From assembly GCA_012719175.1 (NCBI GenBank), contig JAAYAX010000004.1, positions 372,001 through 436,000 of the forward strand: a stretch of DNA of 64,000 nt. The letters are read 5' to 3'. Shown here piece after piece: positions 20,461 through 39,534 of this stretch (position 1 is its first letter; each line of letters starts with the position of its first letter). The position numbers and the translations under genes were made by a program. This DNA is from Methanomassiliicoccus sp. (GTDB taxonomy: Archaea > Thermoplasmatota > Thermoplasmata > Methanomassiliicoccales > Methanomassiliicoccaceae). The notes below the pieces were generated by a model. The model did no database searches, had not been told where the DNA came from, and worked only from the letters and a program-made list of their open reading frames with translations.

Positions 20461-22082
20461 CTGGAAGCACTCTCCACCAGCATCTCCTCGGTCTCGCTCT
20501 CCGTAAGATGATCGACGATTATCTTGGGCTCACCGGCGACGACGATCTTTCCATCTTTCATCAGAACAGCGCGGTCGCAGCAGTTCATCACGAAGTCCAT
20601 GTCATGGGAGACGATGAGGAAGGTCTCCCCCAGCTCCTTCCTAGCGTTGAGAACGGACCTGGCAACGGCCAGCTTGGTGATGGGGTCCATGGTCCCCGTG
20701 GGCTCGTCCAGGATGACCAAACGAGGTTCTCGTATCAGCACCTGGGCCAGAGCCACCCTCTGCTTCTCCCCCACGGACAGGGTATCCGGATATGCATACA
20801 GGAAGCGCTCCACCTCCTGCCTCGTGAATCCTACGCCCAGGAGCACCTGGATAACCTTCATCTTTGCGAGCTCCGCCGGAAGGTTCATCCCGATGCACAC
20901 TGTGAGGTTCTGTAGAATGGTATCGAAAGGATACAGCGAGAACTCCTGGTGCAGGAACCCGATATACTGGGTCGCCCTACCCTTTCCCTCCGGACCCGGC
21001 TCCGCCATGTTGACCCAATCGTCACCGATGCGCACCAGTACCTTCCCTCCTGAGGGTTCGCATATTCCTCCGATCATTCGGGACAAAGTGGTCTTGCCAG
21101 CGCCGGATAGCCCTACCAGGCCTACGATCTCCTTCTCGTTGACCTCCAAGGACACATCGTCCACCGCCTTGACCACACCCCTAGTGTAGGAGTAGAAATA
21201 ACGCTTCGCGTTCTCAATCTTGATCAGAGGCTGTCCGATCTGGACACGGTCCTCGGTGCGGAGGTCGAAGCCAACGGTGAACTCGGAGGTCACATCCTCC
21301 GGCTGACCGATCTTCATCATCTCCCCCGATTCCAGCCATATGGCCTTGTCCGCCATGGCGTTGATGGCCTTGGGCCAGTGCGAGGTCACCACCATGGCCA
21401 TGCCCTTGGTATTGACAGCATTTACGAGGACCTGATGCACTATATCGGCCGTATGGGGATCCAGCGTTCCCGTGGGCTCGTCCGCGAGGAACAGGATGGG
21501 ATCCCGTGCGAGCTGACGGGCGAGGACGCAGCGCTGCTTCTCCCCTCCAGACAGATCCCGAGCTATGTGAGTGATACGATGGTCCAGCTTGACCATCTTC
21601 AGGAGGTCGAGGGCCCTCTCCACCTTTTCCTTTTCGAGCATATCCTCTCCCAGGGCCTCGAAGATGTTCTCGATGACCGTCATGTCCCCGAACAGGGCAA
21701 ATGTCCTCTGCAGCATGATGGCGATCCGCTTGCGAACCTGGGAGCGCAGGGGATCGTCCTCTTTGAGATCCCAGAAATCAATCTCCTGAATCTCTGTGGT
21801 GCCCCCACAGAAGGGACATGGGCGACCTTTGGATGGAAGGTCCACCTTACCGCAGGAGGTGCAGACGTTGACACGGTAAATGACCTTGCCGGCATCCGGC
21901 TGATAATCAGGGGTCCCCCGCAACATGTTGATGAGAACGGACTTTCCAGCGCCGCTCCTGCCGATGAGGCCGAGGATCTCGCCGGCCCCGAGGACAGCGC
22001 TCACATCTCTTAGTACGTAGGAGCCTCCGAATTGCTTGCTGACGTTCTTGATTAGCACAAAGGATTCAGATGACTTGGCCAT
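20457..22082 (-). CDS. atwA: MCR activation component A2 (tandem ABC ATPase)
   Basis: A 541-aa soluble protein with two ABC ATPase halves and no membrane segment. The first Walker A is [10 protein letters not shown] (about residue 39) and the second is [10 protein letters not shown] (about residue 320). The signature motifs are LSGGEKQR and LSVGEKQR. A Cys4 zinc motif (CTSCGKVD, then CPFCGG) is inserted in the first half. This matches component A2, which binds ATP for reductive activation of Ni in MCR. Start ATG 22082, before the conserved first strand. It overlaps mcrC by GTGA. Confidence 0.93.
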
Positions 22083-22367
22083 TTCCAACCGACAACCCCT
22101 CTTAACACTATAAAGTCTTTTATTTCCTTGCAGGAACTGCGGCAAAGAAGGAATCTCCCTTTATTACTTTTCACCCGGTATTTCCTCGAAAAACCGATGA
22201 TGGACTATTATCCAGGATCCTCGATGATGAAATCGCCGCCGTAGGCTGCCCAAGCCGGAGGAGGTCGATCCGTCCTTGAAGAACATACGGTCATGCCATG
22301 AAGGATCGCTGCTTGGATCTCTTTAAGGGCAAATGATTATGTGCGGGCGAGGTTCTTCTTCAACAAT

Positions 22368-23111: not shown

Positions 23112-23672
23112 ATGGTCGGTACGGACGATATTATCAAACGGCTTTCGGAGATGAAGGGTACCGTTCACGTCTTTCGCCTCGATGATAACTGCCGCGATAG
23201 GATCCTGGAGATCGAGAAGGATATCAAGGCGGCGATGTTGATACCCTGCATCAACATGGGTGTGGAAGAGTGCCTGAAACGTCAGCATGTTTTCGCCATA
23301 ATCAAGAACAGAGCTTTCCGACCGCCACCGGAGGCAACGGTGGTCCTCTATTCCGATGATGGTACCGTCCTGGGTGAGGAGATACTACCCTACAAGAAAA
23401 AGCAGTTCCTGGAAGAGAACAAGGAGGAGATCATCTGGCTTTCTGAGGAGTTCGTTCTTTATCCTGAGAGAAAAGGCAAGGCCATGGAGTTCTTCGTCAT
23501 GCCGCCTGTTTCTTTCCCAGAGATCACGGAGATGGGCATGACGAACGTGGTATCGTGCTCTCCTTCAGCCCCTTCCGATATGATGCTGAGGAAGAACCAT
23601 GGCTTCGAGGACGATCCAAAGCTGGCCTCGATCCTGATCGGCTTCGATTCCGAAGAGCCTCTAGGACCTTAA
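23112..23672 (+). CDS. Uncharacterised protein, three-paralogue family member
   Basis: A 186-aa soluble protein, about half identical to the protein at 35666 and distantly related to that at 19290. Shared blocks are the N-terminal KGTVHVFRLDD, INMGVEECLKR, FRPPPEATV, GTVLGEE, IWLSEEFVLYP, MPPVSFPE, then GMTNVVSCSPSAPSD and GFEDDPKLASILIGFD. The SCSPSAPSD block with its single Cys is fully conserved between the two close copies and could be an active or binding site. I do not recognise the family. It is leaderless and convergent with mtmB1. Confidence 0.78.
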   Translation: MVGTDDIIKRLSEMKGTVHVFRLDDNCRDRILEIEKDIKAAMLIPCINMGVEECLKRQHVFAIIKNRAFRPPPEATVVLYSDDGTVLGEEILPYKKKQFLEENKEEIIWLSEEFVLYPERKGKAMEFFVMPPVSFPEITEMGMTNVVSCSPSAPSDMMLRKNHGFEDDPKLASILIGFDSEEPLGP

Positions 23673-23788
23673 GCCTCCATTTTTCTCCTTTCCTTTTTCA
23701 ATCCATAATATCTGGCTTAGCTCGAATTGCGATCGGGCTTGGTCAAGACCTTTTTTACTTTTTGAACAGAGGACAGCACCCCAGCTAA

Positions 23789-25174
23789 CTAACTTGGCAG
23801 GTCTAGGCCGAGATCTCTCAGGGTCTCGCTGGCACTGTCATAGGTACGAAGGTACTCCTTGGTAGGGACCACCTTCCGAACGTTATAGCACTCCTGGAAG
23901 GAACGACCCAGGGGAGCGGTAAGGTATTGCCTCTCATAGCTTCTGACAATCTTTTTAATGAGGCGGTTGACGTCATCTACATCCATGCCCGCTGCCGCTG
24001 CCGATACCTCCCCTAGCATGCGCGCCTCCATGCCGGTGGTATAATCCTCGGAGACCCCTTTTGCCGTCGCGCATCCGGAGACCAGCTCCCTTCCGCTGGC
24101 GGTGTCCAGCAGCGCCTGGGCGGCGATCTCGTGGAGGCACATCTCAGTGCAAGGGCCGGCGATGGTGTAGAATTGATTAGCCACTAGAAGTTCGGTGTTG
24201 GCATCGATGGCTGCGGCTACGTGACCGGCGACCTGCAGGGTCTCTCGCGACGTAGTCATCCCCCAACGGACGTGGATCGGGCCGTCCAGGTGGTAATGGG
24301 CGTTCAGAAGGGTGAAGGAGGTCAGGGTGGTGGCGATATCACATATTGCCGTTTCCTCTATCCCTCCGATGTAGCCTCCCAGGATGGGCATCTGCTCGAC
24401 CATGATCACATCGCCGTTGTGCTTCCAACCGGAGATCATGGCCAAGCTCATGTTGTCGATCTTCAGCTCGTTCAGCTGGGAGACCTCATGACTATCGGTC
24501 GGCTTGAGACCGTCCTTGCCATCACAGGCGAGACGCCCCGCTGCGGACAGCGGTGTCTCCGGACCCTATATGGCCATGTATGGTCTTCCGGCCCGAATGC
24601 ACGCCTCCCGGACCGCCCTGATCTCTGCCAGGGTCCCTAGGATCTCGAAAGGTGTGTTAGTGGTGGACGGTACACCTCCCACGGTGGCCATGACCCCATC
24701 GACGATGGTGTCCACAATGGGCTCCTGGGCATAGCTCTGTATCATGGGTATGAACATATCCTCGGAGACGGTAGCGCCGGTCGGCCCACCCTGTATCACA
24801 GGCTTTCTTGACGAGTTACCCTTGCGAGGCTCGATTGTGACCTTGTCACCATATTCGCCGAGCTGCACGCGCTTGGGGGCTGCCCTGATGCCCGCCCTGA
24901 CCTCATCCTCCGTCACTCTGATGATGCGCTCAGTATCGACGTTGTAAATGCCAACGGAAATAAGCAGCTCCATCCCTGCCTGGAACAGACGCTTCTTCAG
25001 GTCGGGATCGGTGGGGATGAACTCATCGCCGAATGATATTTCGTACTTTTCCTTGAGAGATGTAACGGCATTGGGGACTATCTTGTTGTCCCAGACGTTC
25101 TCGGTAACCTTCGCACCGCGCTCCGAACGGAGATAGGTCTCGTAGACCGTCAAAGCCTTTTCGATCGACGCCAA
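23789..25174 (-). CDS. mtmB: Monomethylamine:corrinoid methyltransferase, copy 1 (pyrrolysine protein)
   Basis: A 461-residue MtmB read through an in-frame TAG at codon 203 (24566-24568), encoding pyrrolysine. Both parts are in the same frame and match MtmB along the full length: VIQGGPTGATVSED, AGRPYMAI-[Pyl]-GPETPLSA, SHEVSQLNELKID, QMPILGGYIGG, HLDGPIHVRWG and AGPCTEMCLHE. It moves the methyl group of monomethylamine to MtmC. Start TTG 25174 with GGAGAGAGG upstream, 12 bases after mtmC. Unusually, the terminal stop is also TAG; read-through there would add 23 residues before TAA. Confidence 0.96.
24530..24559 (-). promoter_or_regulatory. PYLIS-like stem-loop after the mtmB1 amber codon
   Basis: Starting 9 bases from the first base of TAG, GAGAC and CCGCTG pair with CAGCGG and GTCTC around a TCCG loop, 11 pairs with one asymmetric internal loop. 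The surrounding 44 nt are identical to copy 2 (33385-33428). The position matches the PYLIS element proposed for Methanosarcina mtmB. Confidence 0.65.
24566..24568 (-). other. Amber codon read as pyrrolysine (mtmB1 residue 203)
   Basis: In-frame TAG (CTA on the plus strand) between AGRPYMAI and GPETPLSA, the known position of pyrrolysine in MtmB. Conserved sequence continues in frame on both sides, and the decoding system is encoded nearby. Confidence 0.96.
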
Positions 25175-25186
25175 TGCCTCTCTCCG

Positions 25187-25849
25187 TCATTCTAGTAGTA
25201 ACTCGTCGAGCTTGTTGGCGACCTCGGCTCCGCATGCGCAGTACGCATCCCCCCCGATGTCCCTTACCCACCTGTGGGTGCAACAAGCACCGCCAAATAT
25301 CGTTTTTATTCTAAAAAGTTTCTCTTCGTTCAGCTGCTCGATTATTCTCCTCTGGCCCACCAGGGTCGTTGTCATCAGCGCGGAGGCCCCGATCACATCT
25401 GCCCCTTTCTCCCTGGCAGCTAGCAGGAACTCATCTGGGGAAATATCCTTTCCTAGGTCAAAGACCGCATACCCTGCTCCTCTGAGAAAGGCGGTGACCA
25501 CGTTCTTCCCTATCTCATGGATATCGCCTTGGACCGTACCTATCACTACCACTCCCTTGTACGGTAAGAATTTTCCAGCGAGCGCGGGTTCGAAGATGGC
25601 GATGGCCGACTCCATGGCCTCCGAGGCTGCCAGGACTTGAGGCAGGTATATCTTGCCCTCGTTGAAGGCATCGCTGATTCCCATCATCCCTTTGCAGAGG
25701 CCTTCCTCAATGGCCTCGTAAGGATCGATCCCCATATCCAGAGCCCTCTTCGCGGTTTCTACGGCAAGGGCTTTGTTCCAGGTCTCGACCGATATCTTCA
25801 ACAAGGCTAACACCTCGTTCTCTTGTTTTCTCTCAACTCCCAGCATCAT
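25187..25849 (-). CDS. mtmC: Monomethylamine corrinoid protein, copy 1
   Basis: A 220-aa corrinoid protein. The N-terminal four-helix domain (residues about 10-95) has IYLPQVLAASEAM. The B12-binding domain has GDIHEIGKN (DxHxxG, the lower-ligand His), SALMTTT and TIFGGA. It carries the methyl group from MtmB to the methyl-CoM forming enzyme. Start ATG 25849 is preferred: AAGGGGG lies upstream, it aligns with copy 2, and a TATA sequence near 25900 puts transcription start after the earlier ATG 25879. mtmB1 follows after 12 bases. Confidence 0.94.
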   Translation of the reverse strand: MMLGVERKQENEVLALLKISVETWNKALAVETAKRALDMGIDPYEAIEEGLCKGMMGISDAFNEGKIYLPQVLAASEAMESAIAIFEPALAGKFLPYKGVVVIGTVQGDIHEIGKNVVTAFLRGAGYAVFDLGKDISPDEFLLAAREKGADVIGASALMTTTLVGQRRIIEQLNEEKLFRIKTIFGGACCTHRWVRDIGGDAYCACGAEVANKLDELLLE

Positions 25850-25895
25850 TCGGACGTTCCCCCTTTCCTCATCCCGCATAAATTATTGGTAGCGG

Positions 25896-25904
25896 AATTA
25901 TATG
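25896..25904 (-). promoter_or_regulatory. TATA box of mtmC1-mtmB1
   Basis: CATATAATT on the minus strand predicts transcription start near 25873, inside the 175-bp gap after ramA. So mtmCB1 probably has its own promoter in addition to read-through from pyl-ramA. Confidence 0.4.
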
Positions 25905-26054
25905 AAATAGTTTGTTTTCTATCCAAGAATCAGTTGGAGTATGAACGTCAGCACGCTTATACTTATCTGATATCATTGCCCCAGGCCGTTTCCCGGATTC
26001 CAAATCCCTTGCGCCATCGAGGAGATCGACGCTGATATCTCCTCTTTCTCATGA

Positions 26055-27686
26055 TCATCTGGAGACCTTCAGTGACCTTATCTTCATGACATGCTCAGGG
26101 CAGACCAGCTCACATCGCTTGCATGCTGTTCCCAGGCATAGGTCCGAGCGGACGGCGGCCCTCGGGTGTGGTTCTTCGTCCAAGATGGCCAGGGCATCTT
26201 CCGGGCAGGACTCCACGCACTTTCCGCACTGTATGCAGCCGTCCAGCTCTGCGCTTAGGATCGTCCCGGGATCATGCAGGACGGAAATTCCCATGGAGCC
26301 TAGGTCGGGTATGTCCCTTCTGACCTTCCTCACTATCGTGGCCTTTACCGGCTCGAGACGGAGGTGGGGGAGGCCGTAGATGTCCAGCATGTCGTTATAT
26401 GATGTCAGAGGCATGCCGTAGGACCACAGGGAGAGCTCGATGGAGTAGAGGTTCTTGAAAGTCTCCGAGGTGGCGAACATGCAGTGGGTGGCCCTGAGCT
26501 TCTGAGCGAACTGCCTCAGGTCGTCCAGCTCTATCCTACCCATGGTGAGCTCCCTTGCCAACGCCAGTGAGGTATTTCCATACTGGATGATCCGTGTGGA
26601 CCCGGGGGACACCATGCCCACCCTCTGGGCCTTAACGGCGTCCACGTACAGCCCGGACGCACCAGACATGAAGGATATGGGAACATCGTCTATCCACAGG
26701 CCTGCCTCTCTCATCAGTGTGAGGTAACCCGCTCGAAGTGCACCTATGGCCTTTCCCGCCTCATCGACGTCTCTCTCGGTGATATGGACTCCGTCCTGGA
26801 GGTGGACCTTGGTGTCCTCTGTCAATATCTTGGGCAGCTTGATGAGGCCGGCGCTCATCCCGCAGTCAAGAGCGGCCACCACTCCGGTGCCCGTGATGCC
26901 TTTGGCCTGACCATGCATTTCGCCCTTACCTTTGATAGTGCCGCTGCGAGGGTCGATCAGGTCTCCCTTCTTGGCGACATATCCCTCATCTAGAACCCAG
27001 CACTCCCAGCCGTTCTCCATCACGTTTGTGTCGGAGATGGTGCCGGGGGCTGCCAGCATCCCCATCTCGATCTGTTGCCCTTCCAGGGCTGGCCCTGCAG
27101 CTGCTGAACCTGAGAAAATGTTCCCATCCCTGATGAGGGCCATCTCCGCGTTGGTCCCGTAGTCGATTACCAGACAGGGCTCGTCCTGTTCCAGCGCACC
27201 GGTCATGAGCAGCATTGCCAGGGCATCCGCTCCGATCTCGTGACCCACCGCAGGCGGTATGATCACCATGGCCCCCGGTATAGTTTCAAGTCCCAGCTCG
27301 GAGGCAGGCAGGATATCCCCGTCCCTCTTGGGTGGGACCACCTTCAGCGTTTCTAGCATCTTCTGGCCAGCGTAGGCCAGGTCCCGGATCTCGATCTTCT
27401 GGAAAAGAGAGAGTTGGAAGGGGTTTCCGCACACTGCCATCTTGGTCACTTTTCCCAGATCTACCTTCAACAGGGGCAGCAGCTTCTCGATCGTATCCAC
27501 TATCAAGCGATTCGCTTCGTTCTCTCCCGCGTCTATCGCGAAGTTGATGTGGTCGATGACGTTCGAACCGGGGATGGGGTGTCGTGTGGTGATGGCGGTC
27601 GATAACGTCTTGTTTTCCTTCAGGTCGATGGCCTGTGCCCTGAATCCGCTGGTACCTATGTCCAATGCTATACCGAGATCGACCAT
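26055..27686 (-). CDS. ramA: Corrinoid protein reductive activator RamA
   Basis: A 543-aa ATP-dependent activator that reduces inactive Co(II) corrinoid in methylamine proteins to Co(I). The N-terminal ASKHA-type region begins LGIALDIGTSGFRAQ, with VCGNPFQLS, GADALAMLLM and DYGTNAEM. The C-terminal about 65 residues hold two 4Fe-4S motifs, CIQCGKCVESCPE and the modified CLGTACKRCELVCPE. Start ATG 27686 shares one base with the pylD stop (TGATG), so activator and pyrrolysine synthesis are translated together. mtmC1 follows 205 bases later. Confidence 0.95.
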   Translation of the reverse strand: MVDLGIALDIGTSGFRAQAIDLKENKTLSTAITTRHPIPGSNVIDHINFAIDAGENEANRLIVDTIEKLLPLLKVDLGKVTKMAVCGNPFQLSLFQKIEIRDLAYAGQKMLETLKVVPPKRDGDILPASELGLETIPGAMVIIPPAVGHEIGADALAMLLMTGALEQDEPCLVIDYGTNAEMALIRDGNIFSGSAAAGPALEGQQIEMGMLAAPGTISDTNVMENGWECWVLDEGYVAKKGDLIDPRSGTIKGKGEMHGQAKGITGTGVVAALDCGMSAGLIKLPKILTEDTKVHLQDGVHITERDVDEAGKAIGALRAGYLTLMREAGLWIDDVPISFMSGASGLYVDAVKAQRVGMVSPGSTRIIQYGNTSLALARELTMGRIELDDLRQFAQKLRATHCMFATSETFKNLYSIELSLWSYGMPLTSYNDMLDIYGLPHLRLEPVKATIVRKVRRDIPDLGSMGISVLHDPGTILSAELDGCIQCGKCVESCPEDALAILDEEPHPRAAVRSDLCLGTACKRCELVCPEHVMKIRSLKVSR

Positions 27687-28543
27687 CAGATGGCCTCCAT
27701 CTTGATCTCCCGACCCTCTGGAATTGATATCTGTGAAAGGCTCTTGCCTGCGCTCCACACCGCCATGACCGATACCCCTATCTGAAGTGGATCATGGATC
27801 AATGTACCGACCCTGCGGAGGCCTTCATCATCGAAGGAGAATGGCATCCCTGGCGAGGATATTATCGCACCTTCGCGGATCCATTCCCCTGGGACCCTTG
27901 CTGGGGAGGCGTTGAATATCAGGCCGCTCTCCATGACCGCATCCATGAGGTCATACTTCACCCTGAAATTATCGTGGGCTTTCTTCAAAGCTTCCGCCCT
28001 AGACCGGTCCATGTCCACCACGGTCACCTTCGCCCTTTCCCTGTCCAGCAGCTCAGCGGCATATGTTCCGACCCTCCCCGCGCCTATCAGGAGCACCTCC
28101 CTACCCCTCAGACCGTCAGCCGCTACCCTGAGGGCGGTGAAGTAACCCAGAGCAGTTGATCGCGTGTTGTTGGAGAAGGTCCGTGTCCGACAGTTGAAGG
28201 CCACGAACTCATCGTCATCGGCCATGAACACTATGTCGGCTCCGGCCGATATGGCTTCGCTGAATCCTGCTACATCGCTCCTATCAGTAACGAAGGCGCT
28301 CATTCCCAGGTGCTCGACTATGGCGCAGACCGAGTCGGAGAAACCCTCAGTGGTCCCCATACCCGATGTTACGGGAACGGCGGCGGCGGTGTAATCCTCC
28401 ATCCTCAGCTGACGGAGGTCGATCCCCACGGCCTCATATGCAAGACCCTTCAGGGTCATTCCCAGCGTCCTGATTAGCTCCGAGTCCCTCTCTGCAGAGC
28501 TGAAAGGAACGTCCCTGATCATATGCGGTGTCAATCGTGTCAT
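27686..28543 (-). CDS. pylD: Pyrrolysine biosynthesis dehydrogenase PylD
   Basis: A 285-aa enzyme that oxidises the lysine-ornithine dipeptide so that it cyclises to pyrrolysine. The Rossmann nucleotide site is VLLIGAGRVGTYAAE (about residue 165), with VTVVDMD following. Start ATG 28543, chosen by a GGAGGT site 9 bases upstream; it overlaps the pylC stop by ATGA. It ends overlapping ramA. Length is near the family norm. Confidence 0.94.
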   Translation of the reverse strand: MTRLTPHMIRDVPFSSAERDSELIRTLGMTLKGLAYEAVGIDLRQLRMEDYTAAAVPVTSGMGTTEGFSDSVCAIVEHLGMSAFVTDRSDVAGFSEAISAGADIVFMADDDEFVAFNCRTRTFSNNTRSTALGYFTALRVAADGLRGREVLLIGAGRVGTYAAELLDRERAKVTVVDMDRSRAEALKKAHDNFRVKYDLMDAVMESGLIFNASPARVPGEWIREGAIISSPGMPFSFDDEGLRRVGTLIHDPLQIGVSVMAVWSAGKSLSQISIPEGREIKMEAI

Positions 28544-29709
28544 GGGTGTACCTCCGATGTCCAATCCTGGAAAAATGCCATATCGCTCTGTTCCCGGATG
28601 CCTTCCAGGCATCGCATCCTCTTGGCCCATGCCTCCTCAGAGGTGTGGCCCGAGCAGATGATCGTGGCTCTCCATACCGCCTTGCCCGGGCGGTAATCTG
28701 TTATCATCTCGTCCGAACCGAACAGGCCGGCCTCTATCCTCGGCTCACGGACCTGCGAGAACGAACCTTCCCCGCAAGAGGTGATGATCCCTTTGTCGAC
28801 CAGAACATGCTCATAGATGGCCGCTCCCCGGTGAAGCACGGGGACCTCATCTAGCTTGCCGAGGACCAACGCTCCCACCAGTTTCTCGAGGAGGTTCGTT
28901 CCGGTGGCATGATAGACCGCCGCGGGGGTCTGGCTGGGGATCCGGGCATCGATCTCCAGGATCTTGGGGACCCCGTCCCTCACGATGGCCTCAACATCCA
29001 TTATCCCCCTGAGGGAAATGCCCTCAGCTATGCTCTTGGCGTATCCACCCAAGATGCTCTCCAGCTCTGGTGATGCTCCCTCCACGGGGCAACGCACCAT
29101 CCTGCAATCGTAGGACTCGTCCAACAGCACCTCGGTGAGGACCATGGGTGTAGCTTTCGTGCCGTCCCCGATAACCTCTATGGAGATGTTAGGTCCCTCG
29201 ACGAACTCCTGAACGATGGGGTCATCTTTCATCTCCCGGATCGCCGAGATGCTCTTTTCGAGCTCAGCATCGCTGGTGACCCTGTGCACTCCCACGCTCC
29301 CGCTCTGACCAGAGGGTTTCACCACCACAGGGTATCCACACTCAGGCCAGGGCGTGGGAAGCGGCAGCTCTAGTTCCTTCAGGTACTTATTGGAGCAGGC
29401 CTTTGATGACGACAGCTCATAAGCGCTCATGTCGAACAGGAGGGGTACCTCCAGGTCCCTGAACATCCTATCAAGATTTCTCAGGGTCACGAGGTTCTCG
29501 TTCGCGGGGATCACGGCATCGCAATCTGTGAAGACCTTCTTCGCTCCGACCTGGTCCTTGACCACATCCAGAACGATGGCCTCGTCGGCCAGTGACATTG
29601 CGGGGGCCTTGTCCCAACGATCGATCACCACTGTCTCATAGCCTGCCTTGCCCGCAAGATAGACGGCCTCCATTCCCTGAAGTACGCCGCCAACTATTCC
29701 CAGCCTCAT
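28540..29709 (-). CDS. pylC: Pyrrolysine biosynthesis ligase PylC
   Basis: A 389-aa ATP-grasp ligase that joins 3-methylornithine to the epsilon amino group of lysine. It opens with RLGIVGGVLQGMEAVYLAGK, and the ATP-grasp core shows YPVVVKPSGQSGSVGV (about residue 125), VQEFVEGP and MDVEAIV with a later EIDARIPSQTP. It overlaps pylB (stop 29706) and pylD by a few bases at each end, so the biosynthetic genes are translationally coupled. Confidence 0.94.
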   Translation of the reverse strand: MRLGIVGGVLQGMEAVYLAGKAGYETVVIDRWDKAPAMSLADEAIVLDVVKDQVGAKKVFTDCDAVIPANENLVTLRNLDRMFRDLEVPLLFDMSAYELSSSKACSNKYLKELELPLPTPWPECGYPVVVKPSGQSGSVGVHRVTSDAELEKSISAIREMKDDPIVQEFVEGPNISIEVIGDGTKATPMVLTEVLLDESYDCRMVRCPVEGASPELESILGGYAKSIAEGISLRGIMDVEAIVRDGVPKILEIDARIPSQTPAAVYHATGTNLLEKLVGALVLGKLDEVPVLHRGAAIYEHVLVDKGIITSCGEGSFSQVREPRIEAGLFGSDEMITDYRPGKAVWRATIICSGHTSEEAWAKRMRCLEGIREQSDMAFFQDWTSEVHP

Positions 29710-30791
29710 GGCCTTGCCCCCGATAGCCTATGTTCCCGACCCCATCCTGCGATCAATGATGCGTATTCAGCAGGTGTGGCCAGATGCACGTCCGTCTCGT
29801 CGAGAACGTTCTCTATCTGCGCCACTGTCCTACCACCACCCTCAATGTCGAGATCATGTTGAGCGACACCGGCAAGGCCCGTGCTTGGTGGGATGATTGA
29901 TGTTATGACGTTGGCTCCCGCATCCAGTCTGGACCTGAGCCCCTTGATGCCTTCAATGTCCAGACTCGCCGGGATTAATCGGTCGGGGTGCAGAAGGCGC
30001 ATCACGGCGATCGTCACCAGTTCCTCAAGGAACATAGCGGGGTCCCTGCACTCCATGGGGGTGTTGCACTGGGGGATGAAGCTCATCGCCCGCACCTGAC
30101 GGACCCCTAGCTCGTTCATTATCTGGATGGAGCGGGCCCGGTCGGCTATGGACTCACCCACGCCGATCATTATCCCTTCCTCGGCCAGCATTCCCGAGCT
30201 CATCGCCCATTTCTTCTGGGACAGCCTCACATCGAAGTCCTGGTCCGGCCTCAGCTTGGCGAACAGTCCACGGTTATGGGTCTCCTGGTAGCATGCGAAC
30301 CAGTCCGCCCCAGCTTCCTTCAGACCACGGAAGGCATCCATAGGAATGACGCCGGGGGAGATCATGAGGGGGACCTTTACCTCCCTATTGACCCTATCGA
30401 CCAGGTCGATGAGATTCTGGCAATCCTTACCATTATGGAGCAGCGGGTCTTCACCCATGGTCAGATCGACCAGATGAACACCGGAGTCCTCCAATGAAGT
30501 GGATAGGTCAATTATGTCATCTTGTGATTTTCGGTACCTCGAGATCTCCTTGTTGGATCTCCGGTAGTAGCAGAAGGAGCAATTATTTCGGCAGTGGGTG
30601 GAAAAGTAAACGAAACCGTAGCAATACACTGAATCCCCGAAGTTACTCTTCCTGACCGCTCTCGCTGATTCGAAAAGCTCATCCAGGGATACAGGGTCCC
30701 TGAGGGAGAGAAGGGAGCAGATGTCCTCTAGGGACAGTACGTCTCCGTCCATTGCCTTCTCGAGGGCTCGCCCAGACCTGTGGACTGCCAA
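29706..30791 (-). CDS. pylB: Methylornithine synthase PylB (radical SAM)
   Basis: A 361-aa radical SAM mutase that converts lysine to 3-methylornithine. The cluster motif is CRNNCSFCYY (CxxxCxxC), followed by DLTMGEDPLLH, MISPGVIP, YQETHNR and ASLDIEGI, all typical of PylB. TTG 30791 is preferred: a perfect AGGAGG lies 9 bases upstream and the protein then begins like other PylB proteins. An in-frame TTG at 30815 is the alternative. The AGGAGG overlaps the pylS stop codon. Confidence 0.93.
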   Translation of the reverse strand: MAVHRSGRALEKAMDGDVLSLEDICSLLSLRDPVSLDELFESARAVRKSNFGDSVYCYGFVYFSTHCRNNCSFCYYRRSNKEISRYRKSQDDIIDLSTSLEDSGVHLVDLTMGEDPLLHNGKDCQNLIDLVDRVNREVKVPLMISPGVIPMDAFRGLKEAGADWFACYQETHNRGLFAKLRPDQDFDVRLSQKKWAMSSGMLAEEGIMIGVGESIADRARSIQIMNELGVRQVRAMSFIPQCNTPMECRDPAMFLEELVTIAVMRLLHPDRLIPASLDIEGIKGLRSRLDAGANVITSIIPPSTGLAGVAQHDLDIEGGGRTVAQIENVLDETDVHLATPAEYASLIAGWGREHRLSGARP

Positions 30792-30804
30792 CGGGCTCTG
30801 CCTC

Positions 30805-31632
30805 CTATATGTCAAGCCTGGTACCTCCCAAGTAAATCAGGCTCCTGCCGACCTTCTTGATGTTATTCTCGTTGTTCTTAATCATCAGAAGCCGCTCCAG
30901 ACCAAAACCTGCACCTGACCACGAATCAGTGATACCGTGTGCCGGGTCCAACTTGTGAGGGCCCAGAGCGGCCGAGGCCACCTCCACGCCGTTCACCTCG
31001 ACATCGATCGTCCTTCCGTAAACATCGGACTCGCATTCGCACAGCTCGTATTGCAGACCAATGGCGTCCATAACGGTCTGTATGTGATGACGAAGGCGAA
31101 CCAACGGATCCTCCTTCGTACCCATCTCCACTAGGTTTAGCATGGTGAACTCTTCGAGATGATTGGAGCCGTGTGATTCCTTCCGGTAGCATGGACCGAT
31201 CTCGAACATCTGAAGTGGCATCCTGACATTTCTTTTCAGGTGACGCATAAGGAAATAAAGGTTAGGAGCCAGCATCGGCCTTAGGCACCTTGAACCATCC
31301 AGCCAGAAGACCTGATCATGAAGGGGATGTTTTTGGTCGATGCCCATCTTGGCCAGCGCGTTGCCGGAGATGATGGTCGGGGTCCTGACCTCGAAGAAGT
31401 CATCGGCGATCAGTGCTTCGGCGATCCTCCCCTCTATATCCGCGAGAAGATGACGCTCACGTCTATCCTGTAAATCCCTGATCTCCTTACGATTCAGGGA
31501 TTGATAGTAAGCTACCTCTTTAGTGAAGGCCGCGTCCCGTTCCCCCACTGTTTCAAACTTCATCTCCCCATTGTCCGCTCTACCCAGCTCTCGGAGACGC
31601 TGTTTCTGTGAAGGGCTCCATTCAACGGCCAT
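30805..31632 (-). CDS. pylS: Pyrrolysyl-tRNA synthetase, catalytic domain only
   Basis: A 275-aa class II synthetase equivalent to the C-terminal half of Methanosarcina PylS. No N-terminal tRNA-binding domain (PylSn) is fused or present in the window, the Methanomassiliicoccales type. Motif 2 is MFEIGPCYRKES; motif 3 is GAGFGLERLL. The amino-acid pocket shows APNLYFLM, MLNLVEMG (Asn kept, Val where Methanosarcina has Cys) and DVYGRTIDV. Start ATG 31632 with GGAGGAG upstream. The stop codon is TAG itself, so amber suppression could extend it by 42 residues to TGA. Confidence 0.96.
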   Translation of the reverse strand: MAVEWSPSQKQRLRELGRADNGEMKFETVGERDAAFTKEVAYYQSLNRKEIRDLQDRRERHLLADIEGRIAEALIADDFFEVRTPTIISGNALAKMGIDQKHPLHDQVFWLDGSRCLRPMLAPNLYFLMRHLKRNVRMPLQMFEIGPCYRKESHGSNHLEEFTMLNLVEMGTKEDPLVRLRHHIQTVMDAIGLQYELCECESDVYGRTIDVEVNGVEVASAALGPHKLDPAHGITDSWSGAGFGLERLLMIKNNENNIKKVGRSLIYLGGTRLDI

Positions 31633-31668
31633 AGAAGTCTCCTCCGTTGAGTTCGTATCGACTAATAA

Positions 31669-31739
31669 TGGCGAAGGGCCCGGGAGTTGAACCCGGCTGC
31701 CTTAGCTGTAGAGGCCAGGTGGTCCCGGACCAACCCTCC
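31669..31739 (-). tRNA. pylT: tRNA-Pyl (anticodon CUA)
   Basis: A 71-nt tRNA including encoded CCA. The acceptor stem pairs GGAGGGT with GCCCTTC. The D arm is very small (GGTC/GACC with a 3-base loop). The 6-bp anticodon stem contains a C-A mismatch, the anticodon CTA is at 31709-31711, and the T arm is CCGGG-TTCAACT-CCCGG with discriminator G. The minimal D loop and CTA anticodon identify tRNA-Pyl. It lies 36 bases upstream of pylS on the same strand. Confidence 0.95.
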
Positions 31740-31764
31740 AAGGCTGCGCTAAACGCACTCACCG

Positions 31765-31772
31765 CTTTTATA
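31765..31772 (-). promoter_or_regulatory. TATA box of pylT (and pyl operon)
   Basis: TATAAAAG on the minus strand lies 26-33 bases before the first base of pylT, the canonical archaeal spacing. Transcription would begin at or next to the tRNA 5' end. Confidence 0.7.
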
Positions 31773-31778
31773 TTAGTT

Positions 31779-31795
31779 AAAAGGAACTTCCTTTT
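31779..31795. promoter_or_regulatory. 17-bp palindrome next to the pylT TATA box
   Basis: AAAAGGAA-C-TTCCTTTT is a perfect inverted repeat lying 6 bases upstream of the pylT TATA box, where activators or repressors usually bind in archaea. No protein is known to bind it. Confidence 0.5.
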
Positions 31796-32141
31796 CTTAT
31801 AGAGTTCTATCGCATCTAGGGGGGCCTTAACGACAGCATGCCTAGGCGAATGATTATCGAGACCGTGATTTTTATATAAGCCTTTTCCTCCGCTCAGCTT
31901 CATATAACTCTCCCTAACGCCTTCTCGATCTCCTCAACCCCATAACTCCATTATACAGTATATAAACATTTTCACTTAAAAAAAATAAAAAATAAAGATG
32001 TATAAGAAACTATGCTTCTAACTATAAAACCTAAACTTTATTAATATATAAGTTTATCTGTTCAACAGTATTAGTTTTTATACTAGAAAAACCATTGAGA
32101 CACAAACTATTTCAACCATAGATTAAACAGGAGGTAAATGT
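31796..32141. other. AT-rich divergent control region between pylT and mtmC2
   Basis: No gene is recognised. It contains several TATA-like sequences: TTTATATAAG near 31872-31881, TATATAAG near 32045-32052 and TTTTTATACT near 32075-32084; the last two face mtmC2. A near-palindrome (AAACTTTA...ATAAGTTT) overlaps the 32045 box. Regulation of methylamine genes probably acts here. Confidence 0.5.
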
Positions 32142-32780
32142 GTGAGTGACAAAGCTGCAATAATGGGACGTCTCAAGAAATCCATAGAGACTTGGGACAA
32201 AAATCTCGCCGAATCTGCGGCAAAGGAGGCTTTGGCAGCGGGAATCGCACCGGGCGATGCTGTCGAGAATGGCCTGGGAAAGGGGATGGAGGTCATCAGT
32301 CAACAGTTCGACGATGCTAAGATCTACCTGCCTCAGGTCCTGGCCGCCTCTGTGGCCATGGAGACCGCGCTGAAGGTGTTCGAGCCATCAATGACCAAGG
32401 GTCAGACGGCGCAGAAGGGCACCGTTGTAATCGCGACGGTCCTTGGTGACATCCACGAGATCGGCAAGAATGTGGTAGCGGCCATGTTGAAGGGCGGAGG
32501 ATACAACGTCATCGACCTTGGAAGGGATGTGGCTCCCGAGAAGTTCATCGAGGCGGCCAAGGAGCACAAGGCCGGCGTGGTTGGCGCATCCGCTCTCATG
32601 ACAACTACGGTCGTCGTTCAGAAGGACATCGTTGACCTTCTGAAGGAAGAGAAGATGAAAGCAAAGACCATATTCGGTGGCGCACCCGCGAACGAGGAGT
32701 GGGTAGAGAGCATCGGCGGTGATATGTACTGCCCGTCCGGGGCCCAGGCCGTAGAGATGGTCAACACTCTGATGGGGTGA
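32142..32780 (+). CDS. mtmC: Monomethylamine corrinoid protein, copy 2
   Basis: A 212-aa corrinoid protein starting at GTG 32142, six bases after a perfect AGGAGGT. The four-helix cap has IYLPQVLAASVAME and the B12 domain has GDIHEIGKN, SALMTTT and TIFGGAPANEEW. It aligns along its length with copy 1 at 25187 (both have KISVETW/KSIETW near the start). It is followed at once by mtmB2, whose ATG lies four bases past its TGA. Together with copy 1 it flanks the pyl genes in divergent orientation. Confidence 0.95.
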   Translation: MSDKAAIMGRLKKSIETWDKNLAESAAKEALAAGIAPGDAVENGLGKGMEVISQQFDDAKIYLPQVLAASVAMETALKVFEPSMTKGQTAQKGTVVIATVLGDIHEIGKNVVAAMLKGGGYNVIDLGRDVAPEKFIEAAKEHKAGVVGASALMTTTVVVQKDIVDLLKEEKMKAKTIFGGAPANEEWVESIGGDMYCPSGAQAVEMVNTLMG

Positions 32781-32784
32781 AAAA

Positions 32785-34164
32785 ATGGCACCAGCACGAG
32801 CATTGACAATCTTCGACGTGTACGAGCGGTTCACTAAGGGAAAGAAAGTGACCGAGGCCGAGTGGGACTACCAGATAATCCCCACAAATGCCGCCGCCAT
32901 GAAGGACAAGTACAAGATCAAGTTCGGCAAGGAGATGATCCCTGAGGACAAGGATATGAAGAACCGGCTGTTCCAGGCTGGTATGGATATGCTTGTCACT
33001 ACTGGTTTCTACAACTGCGACCTTGGTCGTGTGATGAACGTAACCGAGGAAGAGGTATGGGACGGCATCAAGAAGACCCCCAAGTGGTTGCTACTTGGAG
33101 AGGGCAAGGATGCAGCGCGTTTCGATCCCCGGCACGGGAACGATGCCAGAAAGCCCATTATCCAGGGTGGACCGACCGGAGCCCCGGTCTCTGAGGAAGT
33201 GTTCGTTCAAGTCATGCAGAGCTATGCACAGGAGGCCGTGGTGGACACTCTGGTCAACGGAGTTATGGCCACCATCGAGGGTCACAGTGCCAAGACCAAC
33301 ACTCCTTGGGAGATAAAGGCAGAGCTCGCAGAGCTTAGAGCGGTGAGGGAGGCCAGGATCAGGGCCGGACGACCGAATATGGCTATATAGGGTCCGGAGA
33401 CACCGCTGTCCGCAGCGGGGCGTCTCGCTTCGAACCTTATGGGCGGCCTCAGGCCTTGCGATTCTCACGAATGCTCTCAGCTGAACGAGCTGAAGATCGA
33501 CATGGCGGCCCTCAATATGCTTTCGGGATGGAGCCAGAACGGTGACACCATCATGATAGAGCAGATGCCCATCTTCGGTGGGTACTGCGGAGGAGTGGAG
33601 GAGACCACCATATGTGACATCGCCACCACTCTAGCGTCGTTCACCATGTTCCAGGGCAACTTCCATCTAGATGGACCGATCCACATCAGGTGGGGTATCA
33701 CGACCGCGAGGGAGACCCTCCAGATCGCCGGTCATGCCGCTGCGGCAATTGATGCCAACACCGACCTGCTGATCGCCAACCAGTACTACCCCATCGCCGG
33801 CCCATGCACGGAGATGTGTCTGCTCGAGACGGCCGCTCAGGCCATCGTGGACACTGCTTCCGGCCGTGAGATGCTGTCCGGTTCCGCCGCCGCCAAGGGC
33901 GTTGCCATGGACAAGACCACGGGTATGGAAGCCAGGATCATGGGAGAGGCGGCCATCGCCACATGCGGGAAAAAGATCTCGGAGATCAACGGCATCCTCG
34001 AAAAGCTCATCAGCAGCTACGAGAAGAACTATCACAAGCCTCCTGCTGGAAAGCGCTTCCAGGAGTGCTACGATGTGAAGACCGTGATGCCCACGGACGA
34101 GTACCTGCAGATCTACGACAAAGCTGTCGAGACCCTAAATGGCTTTGGCCTTGCGATAAAGTAA
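32785..34164 (+). CDS. mtmB: Monomethylamine:corrinoid methyltransferase, copy 2 (pyrrolysine protein)
   Basis: A 459-residue MtmB read through one TAG at codon 202 (33388-33390), the same position as Pyl202 of Methanosarcina MtmB. It shares all family blocks with copy 1 (PIIQGGPTGAPVSEE, AGRPNMAI-[Pyl]-GPETPLSA, QMPIFGGYCGG, HLDGPIHIRWG, AGPCTEMCLLE, FQECYDVKTVMPT) and is clearly closer to Methanosarcina MtmB at several of them. The terminal stop is TAA, unlike copy 1. It is in an operon with mtmC2 and probably with the Rh-type transporter downstream. Confidence 0.97.
33388..33390 (+). other. Amber codon read as pyrrolysine (mtmB2 residue 202)
   Basis: In-frame TAG within otherwise continuous MtmB coding sequence, at the position of pyrrolysine in known MtmB proteins. 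Confidence 0.97.
33397..33426 (+). promoter_or_regulatory. PYLIS-like stem-loop after the mtmB2 amber codon
   Basis: GAGAC (33397-33401) and CCGCTG (33403-33408) pair with CAGCGG (33413-33418) and GTCTC (33422-33426). It is identical to the element in copy 1, although flanking codons differ between the genes. Confidence 0.65.
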
Positions 34165-34237
34165 GCCTGGCTAAATCCCTTAAACCCTCTTTTTTTTATT
34201 TTTTTAAACTCGAGGAGGAGCGATAGGAGGAGAAAAA

Positions 34238-35452
34238 ATGAGAGTGGAAACGAAAAGACTGCTGACGTTGGTGTTAGTTGTTTCATGTCTCCTAATGGTC
34301 ATGCTGCCAATGGGTTCGGCATCGGCGGCGGGGGAGGAGCTGATAACGCCCTCGGGGCAACCAGGCACCACTTCCGATACATCCCTGATAGATGATGAGA
34401 GCGATAGATGGACCAAGAACATGGATGTCTGGTTCATGCTCATGTTAGTGGCGTTCTTGATGATGTTCATCCGGAAGTTCGAATGGGCTGTTGCCCTGGC
34501 CGTACTTCTCGTGACCGTCACTAGCTTCCTGACGTATATGGCAGTTCAGGAGTTCTATTTCGACCGGTCATGGGACATGTCATTGATGCTGATGGGAGTG
34601 ATATGCTCGATAACCGTGGTGATCGCCATCGGGATGTTCCTCGGAACCGTGAAGATGTGGCAGTACCTATTGGTAGGTGCCATCTTCGGTCCGGTGTTCG
34701 CCCTTGTGGAGTGGTTCATGTTCTCATATCTTGATGGTGTGGTCGATCCCGGTGGGTCTATACTTGTGCACATGTGCGCCGCGTACTTCGGTATGGGTGC
34801 AATCTTGACCATCAGAGAAAAACGAGCGTTCAATGAACCGATGTACTATTCCACACACAGCATAAGCTTCGTGTGGTTGGCGTCGATGCTACTCTGGATA
34901 TTATGGCCATCTTTCGTCACGTGTCTGCTTCCCGCAGATCAGCAATCGTGGGGTATGATCACGTGCTACATGGCTGGCATAGGGTCCATCTTAACCACCT
35001 ATATCGTCTGCGTGGCCGCACAGAAGAAGGTGAACCCGACGGTCTTCACCTACGCGATGCTTGCTGGACCCGTGGCCATCGGTTCCCCGTTGCTTTCGGT
35101 GAACCAGTGGGGCGCTCTGGTCATCGGCCTGATCGCAGGTACTCTGTCCGCCCTTTCGTTCATCTATCTGCAGCCATGGCTGTGCAAGAAGATAGGTGCA
35201 CTGGATGTCATGGGTGTGCACAACCTGCATGGCGTCGGGGGCTGGATAGGCGCCCTTACTGCTGCCATTATCGTCGGGAGCGGGACCAATGTCATAGCTG
35301 CTGTCGGTGTCGTCGCTATAACCATGGTCACTGGTGGAATCACCGGTGCGATACTGAGGGCGACACGGGGTAAGATCGCTGATGAGGACATGTTCGAGGA
35401 CAAGGCCGACTTCATCCTGAACGAGGCGCCTTCGACGGAGGCTAGCCAATAA
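34238..35452 (+). CDS. Rh/Amt-family ammonium (possibly methylammonium) transporter
   Basis: A 404-aa integral membrane protein with an N-terminal signal-like segment (residues 1-31), then an acidic linker and about 11 membrane helices. It is of the Rh type: DPGGSILVHMCAAYFGMG carries the first pore His, and GVHNLHGVGGWIGAL carries the second (twin-His). GGAGGAG precedes ATG 34238. It starts 73 bases after mtmB2 on the same strand, so uptake of methylammonium is a reasonable guess; ammonium transport or release of the ammonia made by MtmB are alternatives. The C-terminus is acidic and cytoplasmic. Confidence 0.88.
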   Translation: MRVETKRLLTLVLVVSCLLMVMLPMGSASAAGEELITPSGQPGTTSDTSLIDDESDRWTKNMDVWFMLMLVAFLMMFIRKFEWAVALAVLLVTVTSFLTYMAVQEFYFDRSWDMSLMLMGVICSITVVIAIGMFLGTVKMWQYLLVGAIFGPVFALVEWFMFSYLDGVVDPGGSILVHMCAAYFGMGAILTIREKRAFNEPMYYSTHSISFVWLASMLLWILWPSFVTCLLPADQQSWGMITCYMAGIGSILTTYIVCVAAQKKVNPTVFTYAMLAGPVAIGSPLLSVNQWGALVIGLIAGTLSALSFIYLQPWLCKKIGALDVMGVHNLHGVGGWIGALTAAIIVGSGTNVIAAVGVVAITMVTGGITGAILRATRGKIADEDMFEDKADFILNEAPSTEASQ

Positions 35453-35520
35453 GATGGACGCGTTGGCCAAAACAGGAGGTGGTCCTAAGAAGGGTTGTCA
35501 GGATCAAGCAAGTTCGTTTA

Positions 35521-35541
35521 GCATCGGTCCCTTTCCGATGC
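35521..35541 (+). terminator. Stem-loop downstream of the Rh-type transporter gene
   Basis: GCATCGG (35521-35527) pairs perfectly with CCGATGC (35535-35541) around a 7-base loop, 69 bases past the stop codon. No clean T tract follows, so it may be an RNA-processing or stability hairpin instead of a terminator. Confidence 0.35.
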
Positions 35542-35665
35542 CTGGAGTCTGCCACCTCCAAAACCTCTACAAACCCTTTCCCATATTTTTTTCCACACCA
35601 TCCCTCATTCACGCAAGCATTTTATCGTCCCGGAATAGTCTGTTTACGGTCAAGGTAGATCCGAT

Positions 35666-36223
35666 ATGAAAACGAAGACATTGAACGATATTCTCGATAT
35701 GCTGAGGAGCATGAGAGGCACGGTCGAAGCCTTCGTCCTCGATGATGGATGCAGGGAGAGGATCATCAACATCGAGAGGAGCATCAAAAGCACCATGGGC
35801 ATCCCCATCATCAATAAGGGAGTCGAAGAGTGCCTTCAACGTAAGTATGTAGTTTGCATAATAAAGAGGGTGGGTTTTAGACCTCCCCCCGAGCCCACAG
35901 TCATGTTGCTAACAGATACCGGAGTGGTCCTGGGAGAAGAGGTTCTTCTGCCATACAGGAAGAGGTTTCTGGAGAATATCAACGAGAACTTCATTTGGCT
36001 CGCGGATGACTTCGTAGTCTATCCTGATAGAAGAGGTGGTACGAGGGAATTCTTCATCATGCCTCCGGTCTCGTTCCCGGAAGTGTCACAAATGGGAATG
36101 AGGAACGTGGTGTCCTGCTCACCCTCCGCTCCTTCCGACGCGATGTTGAGGAAAGAACATGGTTTCGAGGACAATCCCAAGCTAGCCTCGATCCTCATCG
36201 GATTCGATCCCGATGAGGAGTAG
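35666..36223 (+). CDS. Uncharacterised protein, three-paralogue family member
   Basis: A 185-aa soluble protein, close paralogue of the one at 23112 (RGTVEAFVLDD, INKGVEECLQR, GFRPPPEPTV, GVVLGEE, FIWLADDFVVYP, EFFIMPPVSFPE, GMRNVVSCSPSAPSD, GFEDNPKLASILIGFD). It follows the Rh-type gene by 213 bases and is convergent with the DUF2098-mcr operon. The stop is TAG with a TAA two codons later. I cannot name the family or predict a reaction; the nearly unchanged SCSPSAPSD block and the repeated location next to methanogenesis loci are the main clues. Confidence 0.78.
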   Translation: MKTKTLNDILDMLRSMRGTVEAFVLDDGCRERIINIERSIKSTMGIPIINKGVEECLQRKYVVCIIKRVGFRPPPEPTVMLLTDTGVVLGEEVLLPYRKRFLENINENFIWLADDFVVYPDRRGGTREFFIMPPVSFPEVSQMGMRNVVSCSPSAPSDAMLRKEHGFEDNPKLASILIGFDPDEE

Positions 36224-36360: not shown

Positions 36361-36639
36361 TCAACCCGCGCCAGAGGGAGTGATCCGCTGGGCCTTCTCA
36401 GCAGCCTCCGCCATTTCCTGACGGAGCCTCTCGAGGTCCTGCAGCTGGTCCCTCTTGCCGAAATCACGCTCGGTGGCCGCCTTGTACTCGTCCTCGGTGG
36501 CAGGGTCGAGCGCGGACATATCATAGTAGAGGTCCGTGGTGTCCAGGAGAGCCCAGTTCACCTTTTCCTCTTCCATGATGTCCACTATCTTCCCTACTGT
36601 TCCGGTGTTCCGATACTTGGCAAGGTCACCTACGATCAT
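36361..36639 (-). CDS. DUF2098 family protein
   Basis: A 92-aa protein matching the small archaeal DUF2098 family: VGDLAKYRNTGTVGKIVDI, then VNWALLDTTDLYYDMSAL. The core looks like a small beta barrel (SH3-like) followed here by a charged helical C-terminus rich in Glu, Arg and Gln. It starts at ATG 36639, five bases past the mcrA stop, so it is the last gene of the mcr operon. Function is unknown; co-transcription with mcrA suggests a link with MCR or its expression (inference). Confidence 0.85.
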   Translation of the reverse strand: MIVGDLAKYRNTGTVGKIVDIMEEEKVNWALLDTTDLYYDMSALDPATEDEYKAATERDFGKRDQLQDLERLRQEMAEAAEKAQRITPSGAG

Positions 36640-36644
36640 TCAGC

Positions 36645-38309
36645 TCACTGCGCGGGGATGATGGTGCTTCTCTCGCCGGCGGGCATGAACTCCCGCAGTG
36701 CGCCACGGCCGAACTCCTTCGTGATGTTGGCGAAGTCGAACGGCATGCTCTTGTCGGCGAAGGCGACCTTGATCAGCGGGTTGCAGGCGAAGGCATCGCC
36801 GCGGGCTGCGTGAGCAGCAGCCGCGATACCGCCGTATCCGGACAGGTGACCGACGTTCATGGCGTAGTTGGGGTAGTTCGGGCCCCTCAGCTCGAAGGGC
36901 AGGCCTTCGTCGCTCCTGTAGGACAGAGAGTTGCAAGAACCGCACTGGTCCTGCAGGTCGTACCCATAGAAGCCGAGACGTCCGTGCCTTTCCTTGTGCT
37001 GGAGCATGGAGAGGTACCAGCCGTTGACACCGAAGTCAGCGTTACCAGTGGCCATCGCGCAAGCGATACCGGTGGCAGCAGCAGCGACGGTCGCACGCTG
37101 GGATCCACCGAAGTGGGTTTCCATGGCGGCGGGGTACTTCTCGTACATCTCGAGGGCGTAGGTGTTGACCTCAGAGCCTAGCTTCTCCATCAGGTCCATG
37201 GAGGGCTTGCTCTTGCAAAGCCCGCCGTACTTGGACTTGACGAGATCAAGGGCCCAGTAGGTGTAGTCCTCGAGGATGTTGTCGGTGTAGGCGGCGGTAG
37301 CGTACTGGGTGAACCCGACACCACCGGACATGTAGGACCCGAGGTATATCTGGTCGAACACGACTGCGCCCAGGGCGACGGTCTCCAGAGCCTGGCGGCC
37401 GGGGTCGTCGGGGTGCACACGGAGCGACTGGACCATATCGGCAAGGAACCCGAAGGGTATTCCACCGGGCTCGTTGGGTCCACGGGCACGCCTGGCGGGC
37501 ATCATGGTACCCATCTCCACGACGGACGCGTGCTTCGCGGCGAAGGCGAAGTCGGCGATGGCGGCCTCACCGGCGGCCAGTCTGTAGGCGCTGATGAAGG
37601 ACATCGAGATCTGCATGGCGCTCCAGCGGGACATGGTACCGCCGTCGCAAACACGGCCGACGATGGTCGGGCAAGCGACCTTCTGCCACATGGACTTGCC
37701 AATGGCCTCCTTCAGCTGCTTGGCCTGGTCCTTGGGGAACTCCTTGTTGATGTCGATGACGAACCGCTTGTCGATCTGGCTGATGAGCTCGTCGTCGCCC
37801 GAGAAGACCTTGACGTAACAGTCGGAGGTAAGGGCGGGGCTGCACTCGGCCATGTGCTCCTGCACAACGGCGCCACCGGGCATCGCGTGGTTCACGGTCT
37901 CGAGGTAGTGGTTAATGGTCTCAGGAGTGACCTCCTTGCCCAGCCTCTTCTCGATGACAGCGTGCGCGGTGTCCAGGCCGGAGATGACGGTCCTGCGGAT
38001 ATCGTCCCACGCCTGCTGCATAGCGGCGTTGTTGACGAAGTGCAGGTCATCGCCCTCGGCGTATATGTCGGTGTGGGACAGCTGGTAGGGCATCAGGACA
38101 CGCTGGCCGAGAGGAACACCGATGTCGGGGTTCATCATCGGGATGCCACGGGCCTTGGCGACCTTGTTAGCCTGCTCGACCCACTCCCTCTTCCTCTTGG
38201 ACTGCTTCCAGCCACCGTAGGTGTAGTAATGGGTGCTTACTTCCGTCGGGGCCTCCTTGAACTTCTTCTTCATCGAATCCAAGAATAACTTTTCCTTTTC
38301 CTTAGCCAT
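36645..38309 (-). CDS. mcrA: Methyl-coenzyme M reductase subunit alpha
   Basis: The 554-aa alpha subunit of the enzyme that forms methane from methyl-CoM and CoB; it helps hold the nickel cofactor F430. The regions of modified residues are all visible: [11 protein letters not shown] (methyl-His), [13 protein letters not shown] (CoB site and methyl-Arg) and [15 protein letters not shown] (thioglycine at the Gly after FY, dehydro-Asp and methyl-Cys positions). GCGGA order follows mcrB-mcrD-mcrG. A second Cys after QCGS, where many methanogens have Ala, is worth noting. TfuA and YcaO genes upstream support the thioglycine. Confidence 0.98.
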
Positions 38310-38312
38310 TGT

Positions 38313-39086
38313 TTACTCCCCCTTAAGGGCGTAGGCCTGGAATCCGCAAAGGGTCCTCAGCCTGTGGATCCTCAGGTTCACAGCGGTTACCTCGGGGTCG
38401 TCCCTCATGTCCACGCCGTCCACCCTGAAGATGGTGGTCATCTTCTTCAGCTCGGCATCGGGCAGGGGCTTGCCCACGGATATGGGCTTGTCCAGCGGGA
38501 TGGCGACCTGGTCCTTCGTGTACTCGATCTCACCCTTCTTGGCGTTCCAGCGGTACCTCTGCCAGGCATCGAACATCAGGCCGTTCTCGTCCAGCCTGCA
38601 GGCGTGCCCGTGCACAGTGGCGCCTCTGATACCGGTCTTTGCGGGGTCAAAGGTCTCGTTGTCGATGAGCTCCTTGGCGACCTTCTCAAGGTCCCTCTCC
38701 CTCATCTCAATGATCTGTCTGCCAGAAAGGGTACCGGTGTCGAAACCGCGCATCCTGGTGAAGTACATCCAAGCCCTCAGGTATGGAACCATAGGGGCGA
38801 AGTACACCGAGTCGGTGAACTGAATGTACCTGATCCTGTCTCCCTTCTTGGCACCCTCAATAGGGGTGACCAGCTTTCTGATGAGGTCATCCGGCTCGTT
38901 GCCCTCCTCGAGTGGGGGGTGGATGGACTTGTACTCCTCACCAGGGGCCCTGTGGCCCATGATCCTCACAACATCGTCCATGGACACATCCCTCAGCTTC
39001 TTCAACTTCTGGGAGGGGTCCATGTAGCGGCGCCTGTTCTTGGCGACCTGGCTGGTCCCGGGATAGAACTGTCTCTGGTATGCCAT
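38313..39086 (-). CDS. mcrG: Methyl-coenzyme M reductase subunit gamma
   Basis: The 257-aa gamma subunit of MCR. Start ATG 39086 is fixed by a GAGGTAA site and by the normal N-terminus [18 protein letters not shown]. Other family segments are [56 protein letters not shown] and [13 protein letters not shown]. It lies between mcrD and mcrA with short gaps (5 and 3 bases). No mcrC is present between mcrD and mcrG. Confidence 0.97.
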
Positions 39087-39091
39087 AATAA

Positions 39092-39517: not shown

Positions 39518-39534
39518 CAAGCCACACCAACCGT

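Follow-up and report, generated by a model that had tools for sequence, protein, structure and literature searches.

MCR makes nearly all biological methane, and we know of no MCR activation complex that has been purified from Methanomassiliicoccales so far. The activation complex purified in 2025 includes McrC, Mmp7, Mmp17, Mmp3, A2 and DUF2098, and in the solved complex the DUF2098 product binds McrC (PMC12176620). Methanogenesis markers are defined as proteins found in all methanogens and in no other archaea, and the marker gene cluster was described by Borrel et al. in 2014 (PMC4153887).

The window analyzed here, a stretch of 64,000 nucleotides from Methanomassiliicoccus sp. (contig JAAYAX010000004.1), carries three related genes, P1, P2 and P3. 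Their products lie in the same gene cluster as the markers (Mmp3, 5, 6, 7, 15 and 17) and McrC/DUF2098 and, like these, are small, mostly uncharacterised proteins encoded near mcr. However, they have no sequence similarity to them and, unlike the markers, which are methanogen-only by definition, they occur in MCR-less archaea and, among the matches listed, only in Thermoplasmatota. P1, P2 and P3 represent a real family, new and uncharacterised, whose members are soluble and about 185 residues long. In one order it is closely associated with the MCR cluster, yet it is not specific to MCR.

The sequence-only reading of this DNA knew no family name for them, and the databases agree. P1, P2 and P3 had no match in Pfam, NCBIfam or PHROGs, and no family match was found among PDB sequences. 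Family-library searches with 72 members gave nothing significant, nor did 29 divergent members against Pfam, and the viral contigs scanned held no relatives.

Three family members and their surroundings in the window

All three open reading frames are present and have the neighbours that the sequence-only reading described. P3 (19290-19856, + strand, 188 aa, with a possible alternative TTG start at 19275) lies between two units of the - strand. One is the marker operon Mmp7-17-15-5-6-3 (13814-19121), named here from the known gene order and the literature, with not every gene scanned, whose Mmp3 gene is divergent from P3; the other is mcrC and atwA (A2 component) of the MCR activation complex (19858-22145), whose mcrC is convergent with P3 and 1-2 bp away. 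P1 (23112-23672, + strand, 186 aa) has as same-strand upstream neighbour the gene of a DUF6951 protein (PF22263; 22341-22691, + strand). It is divergent from the gene of a carboxymuconolactone-decarboxylase (CMD)/AhpD-like protein (PF02627; 22669-23067, - strand), 44 bp off, and convergent with mtmB1. P2 (35666-36223, + strand, 185 aa) is located between the Amt gene, earlier called Rh, and the DUF2098-mcrA-mcrG-mcrD-mcrB operon (36361-40860, - strand), with which it is convergent, a placement typical of the order. Each copy lies on the strand opposite to its methanogenesis neighbours, and therefore none belongs to one operon with mcr or mtmB1 genes.

P1 and P2 are close paralogues (62-65% identity), as had been claimed, and differ in the block GMxNVVSCSPSAPSD solely at x. 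The more distant kinship proposed for P3 also held: it shares 26% identity with P1 over 175 aa (pairwise blastp, E=2e-17), was recovered by tblastn in its own genome (E=7e-12), and its AlphaFold2 model has the main strands and helices in the same predicted order as that of P1. By tblastn these are the sole family copies in the source genome. The P1 and P3 genes are under purifying selection, as follows from the low dN relative to dS against orthologues of the same genus (0.05 and 0.71 for P1 versus G004; 0.06 and 0.70 for P3 versus G003).

Between P1 and P2 the window contains a 12-kb methylamine/pyrrolysine island (mtmB1C1, ramA, pylDCBS, mtmC2B2 and Amt; 23789-35452). In L124, a close relative, the block of CMD gene, family gene and mcrA is compact and uninterrupted, and in other genomes of the family (L129/L130 and L137) the same island is sited instead between atwA and the DUF4443-DUF2111 gene. 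Because of these two arrangements, P1 and P2 appear from gene order and the tree to be duplicates flanking the island, and the pattern of one copy beside each methanogenesis block would be local. The proposed link to mtm or corrinoid function is not supported by this comparison: no more than 4 of the 48 P1/P2-type copies have mtmB within 6 kb, and the link is rejected as an arrangement local to the source lineage.

Several other features of the window deserve mention. In most of the order an HTH-DUF4443-DUF2111 gene lies between atwA and DUF6951 (for example L062:10466-11452; window equivalent 22145-22341); DUF2111 had no match anywhere in the source genome, and the gene was probably lost in the source lineage. 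Two RamA-like corrinoid-activator paralogues were seen at 26055-27758 and 43936-45576, the second adjoining a methyltransferase (45806) and a corrinoid protein (47158). The 957-aa RtcB-like RNA ligase frame at 56415-59288 has an apparent intein, the insert ending in a VSNCGVR-like junction. Proteins at 52660-55116, 2072-2593 and 2946-3497 have in common a DUF835-like C-terminal region; two of them are in tandem, with membrane N-termini.

Occurrence and gene neighbourhoods of the family

The family was found, with 1-5 copies each, in 60 of 61 genomes, a set made up of the source and relatives ranging from its own genus out to its order. Phylum-wide samples gave matches in 39/293 and 57/389 genomes, solely in Methanomassiliicoccales and one other order of Thermoplasmata. 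In a collection of 84,980 genomes, 140 stretches encode a relative; the titles of the best 80 of these 140 matches all fit Thermoplasmatota, some reading only "Euryarchaeota archaeon".

The other order has a P1/P2-type gene in 18 of 21 genomes, the remaining three being 55-84% complete. Neither McrA nor McrC was detected in any of the 21 genomes by searches in which control methanogens were positive and which also found both families in the source genome. Zinke et al. 2021 reportedly speak of "non-methanogenic clades basal to the Methanomassiliicoccales", and the MCR-less order may correspond to these. With 18 of 21 genomes of this order having the gene, the family is not a methanogenesis marker, a class that has to be absent from non-methanogens.

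A tree of 109 sequences, some on long branches, separates group A (P1/P2 type together with the MCR-less order), group B (P3 type) and group C (Methanomethylophilaceae-type paralogues). The groups are homologous (A versus C plus B-outliers, hhalign 100%, E=8e-49). In group A, whose members are about 40-50% identical, 46/48 loci have some mcr-cluster gene at most 6 kb away; mcrA is downstream and convergent in 41/48, and the typical site is tail-to-tail with DUF2098-mcrAGDB. In group B, Mmp3 lies upstream in divergent orientation in 26 of 34 loci, and 25 of 34 have a convergent mcrC downstream, at a median gap of 3 bp. Thus 46/48 group-A and most group-B loci are clustered with mcr, mcrC, Mmp3 or atwA, as are genes of the MCR activation complex, and this placement, mapped also in 80 named loci, is strongly conserved across Methanomassiliicoccales. 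In the accession series of Borrel et al. 2014, the gap from mcrC to the next marker is where a P3 orthologue would be expected to fall. Group C had no mcr genes nearby (0/23), save one atwA-like ABC match, and in Methanomethylophilaceae-type genomes the Mmp3-mcrC gap is without group B.

The context in the MCR-less order is a different one. An OsmC-like gene precedes the family gene in all 15 loci read, with a thioredoxin-like gene between them in 9, and a glutamate dehydrogenase (GDH) gene then follows in 14, the other ending at the contig end. In G280 the thioredoxin-like protein has two CxxC motifs. In methanogens the family gene is often flanked by a divergent AhpD-like CMD gene. OsmC and AhpD/CMD peroxidase-related proteins are thus recurrent gene neighbours of the family; however, they have no homology to it, and the family is without a conserved cysteine. 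The DUF6951 gene, which lies next to the group-A gene, upstream and on the same strand, in 37/48 loci, and the HTH-DUF4443-DUF2111 gene both recur often as neighbours. However, a search of 11 MCR-less genomes found neither, and the source genome has no DUF2111, so that neither is a fixed partner.

The suggestion of an MCR role therefore stands in one part and not in another: the gene-cluster link is real and order-wide (46/48 group A), but an MCR-exclusive role does not agree with 18/21 genomes of the MCR-less order keeping the gene. Homologues in non-methanogens with no link to mcr or mtm genes, which would speak against such a role, exist to the extent of this order, in its OsmC/thioredoxin/GDH context.

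Two lineages have group-A copies next to topoisomerase VI genes (L131:9516-10073, L209:5998-6825, L141), and in the MCR-less G280 topoisomerase VI B is within about 10 kb of the family gene; this neighbourhood is possibly the ancestral location of the gene. Group-C paralogues (L085, L092, L096, L102, L108) are fast-evolving, some in tandem and some with in-frame stops, and often adjoin a gene for a protein of 750-820 aa (topoisomerase-like in L089).

Conserved residues, structure models and possible roles

Ten residues are invariant in 72 group A/B sequences (G16, E35, N48, G50, G88, F114, F135, S148, S150 and D156), and R57, K65, R70, P72-P73, E90, P131-P132 and E137 are nearly so. Across these 72 sequences neither Cys nor His reaches 80% conservation at any position, and this includes a redox Cys of the thiol peroxidase or thioredoxin type. 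The "Cys-Ser-Pro block" to which the sequence-only reading had drawn attention is conserved in another form, SxS...D: the Cys of SCSPSAPSD is replaced by Ser in the MCR-less order and by Gly in P3. A catalytic cysteine site at this block is ruled out, the Cys not being conserved. Since no Cys or His is conserved, the alignment suggests that thiol or Fe-S chemistry is unlikely and that ligand or protein binding is likelier.

Structure prediction, proposed as a check by the same reading, gave confident AlphaFold2 models of P1 (pLDDT 94.9, pTM 0.87) and P3 (pLDDT 93.9, pTM 0.87), and Foldseek found no significant match for P1 in PDB and BFVD or for P3 in PDB. About 17 of the top 50 PDB matches of the P3 model are of the nitroreductase fold, QueG included; they are non-significant and mutually related, hence not independent, the best is 3h4o (E=0.19, prob 0.47), and TM values are mostly 0.3-0.43. 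The family might accordingly have a degenerate nitroreductase/CblC-like core and a ligand-binding or catalytic function: it would bind flavin or a tetrapyrrole (corrinoid or F430) and sense or service the cofactor. The likeness lies in a C-terminal strand-helix-strand segment, and the best local hhalign stretch (residues 148-179) also aligns with the nitroreductase C-terminus. However, the top list of the P1 model is not rich in nitroreductase-fold proteins, and hhalign against nitroreductases from relatives gave overall probabilities of 0.6-1.8%, no better than 35 control families. PF00881 had no match at E<=0.5 in 72 + 29 = 101 members, and the N-terminal Arg-Arg-Ser motif, with its FMN-phosphate arginines, is missing. 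Nitroreductases also carry helices where the family models have beta hairpins. Membership of the nitroreductase family finds no support in the Pfam and hhalign results; we consider the broader cofactor-binding reading quite unlikely and the resemblance of the P3 model a weak lead only.

What else could hold these genes beside mcr? Their products might serve the MCR activation complex as order-specific subunits or assembly factors, binding directly to McrC, Mmp3 or DUF2098. The position of group B between Mmp3 and mcrC agrees with this, as do the near-universal presence in the order (60/61 genomes) and the adjacency of group A to DUF2098, whose product is the partner of McrC (PMC12176620). It is nevertheless doubtful, as group-A genes are kept by MCR-less genomes, one large family lacks group B in the Mmp3-mcrC gap, transcription is opposite to the mcr genes, and no such subunit is among the named co-purified proteins of the M. 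maripaludis complex (PMC12176620). The same opposite strand, shared by the copies with respect to all mcr neighbours, keeps alive a passive placement, in which a conserved gene block captured a housekeeping gene that is functionally unrelated to MCR. The different, equally conserved context in the MCR-less order and a few relocated copies (L131, L090) fit it as well. Yet two distinct subfamilies are each located at MCR-cluster genes across a deep divergence, while group C and the MCR-less-order copies sit elsewhere, and we regard passive placement as unlikely.

The family probably represents a redox-related helper that was borrowed, rather than a core methane protein. Its function is read from gene neighbours, and the redox part of the reading from these neighbours only. 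Our best explanation, offered tentatively as a quite possible one, is an ancestral redox or peroxide-stress accessory protein that was later fixed beside mcr as an optional, lineage-specific MCR helper. The ancestral protein would have worked through binding of a small ligand or a partner protein rather than through thiol or Fe-S chemistry. In Methanomassiliicoccales the gene may then have become fixed beside mcr, DUF2098, Mmp3 and mcrC and duplicated, with group A at the mcr operon end and group B between Mmp3 and mcrC, where it most likely would aid upkeep or reactivation of the oxygen-sensitive MCR/F430 system. In the source lineage, as gene order and the tree suggest, group A would have been duplicated again, and the island between the copies would give the apparent mtmB link. 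The explanation is supported by the neighbours of groups A and B that encode the MCR activation complex, by the order OsmC, (thioredoxin), family gene, GDH in the MCR-less order, by the CMD/AhpD-like neighbour in methanogens, by the presence of the family in 18 of 21 genomes that all lack McrA and McrC matches or belong to an order lacking them, and by the set of invariant residues without Cys or His. Against it count the orientation opposite to mcr, the absence from the M. maripaludis complex, the lack of group B in the Mmp3-mcrC gap of Methanomethylophilaceae-type genomes and the 23 unlinked group-C paralogues. A more specific version, rather doubtful, is that the family, which has no solved fold relative, originated as a partner of OsmC/thioredoxin in redox stress, and that two recruitments, those of groups A and B, made it a lineage-specific MCR maintenance factor.

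It was not until 2025 that the MCR activation machinery was solved, and this in a distantly related methanogen (PMC12176620). Occurring in organisms both with and without MCR, the family protein provides a clear test set. If that explanation is true, a family fixed in the MCR activation cluster of gut and wetland Methanomassiliicoccales and untied elsewhere would mean that MCR support differs between lineages, and it would show where extra MCR-support parts came from.
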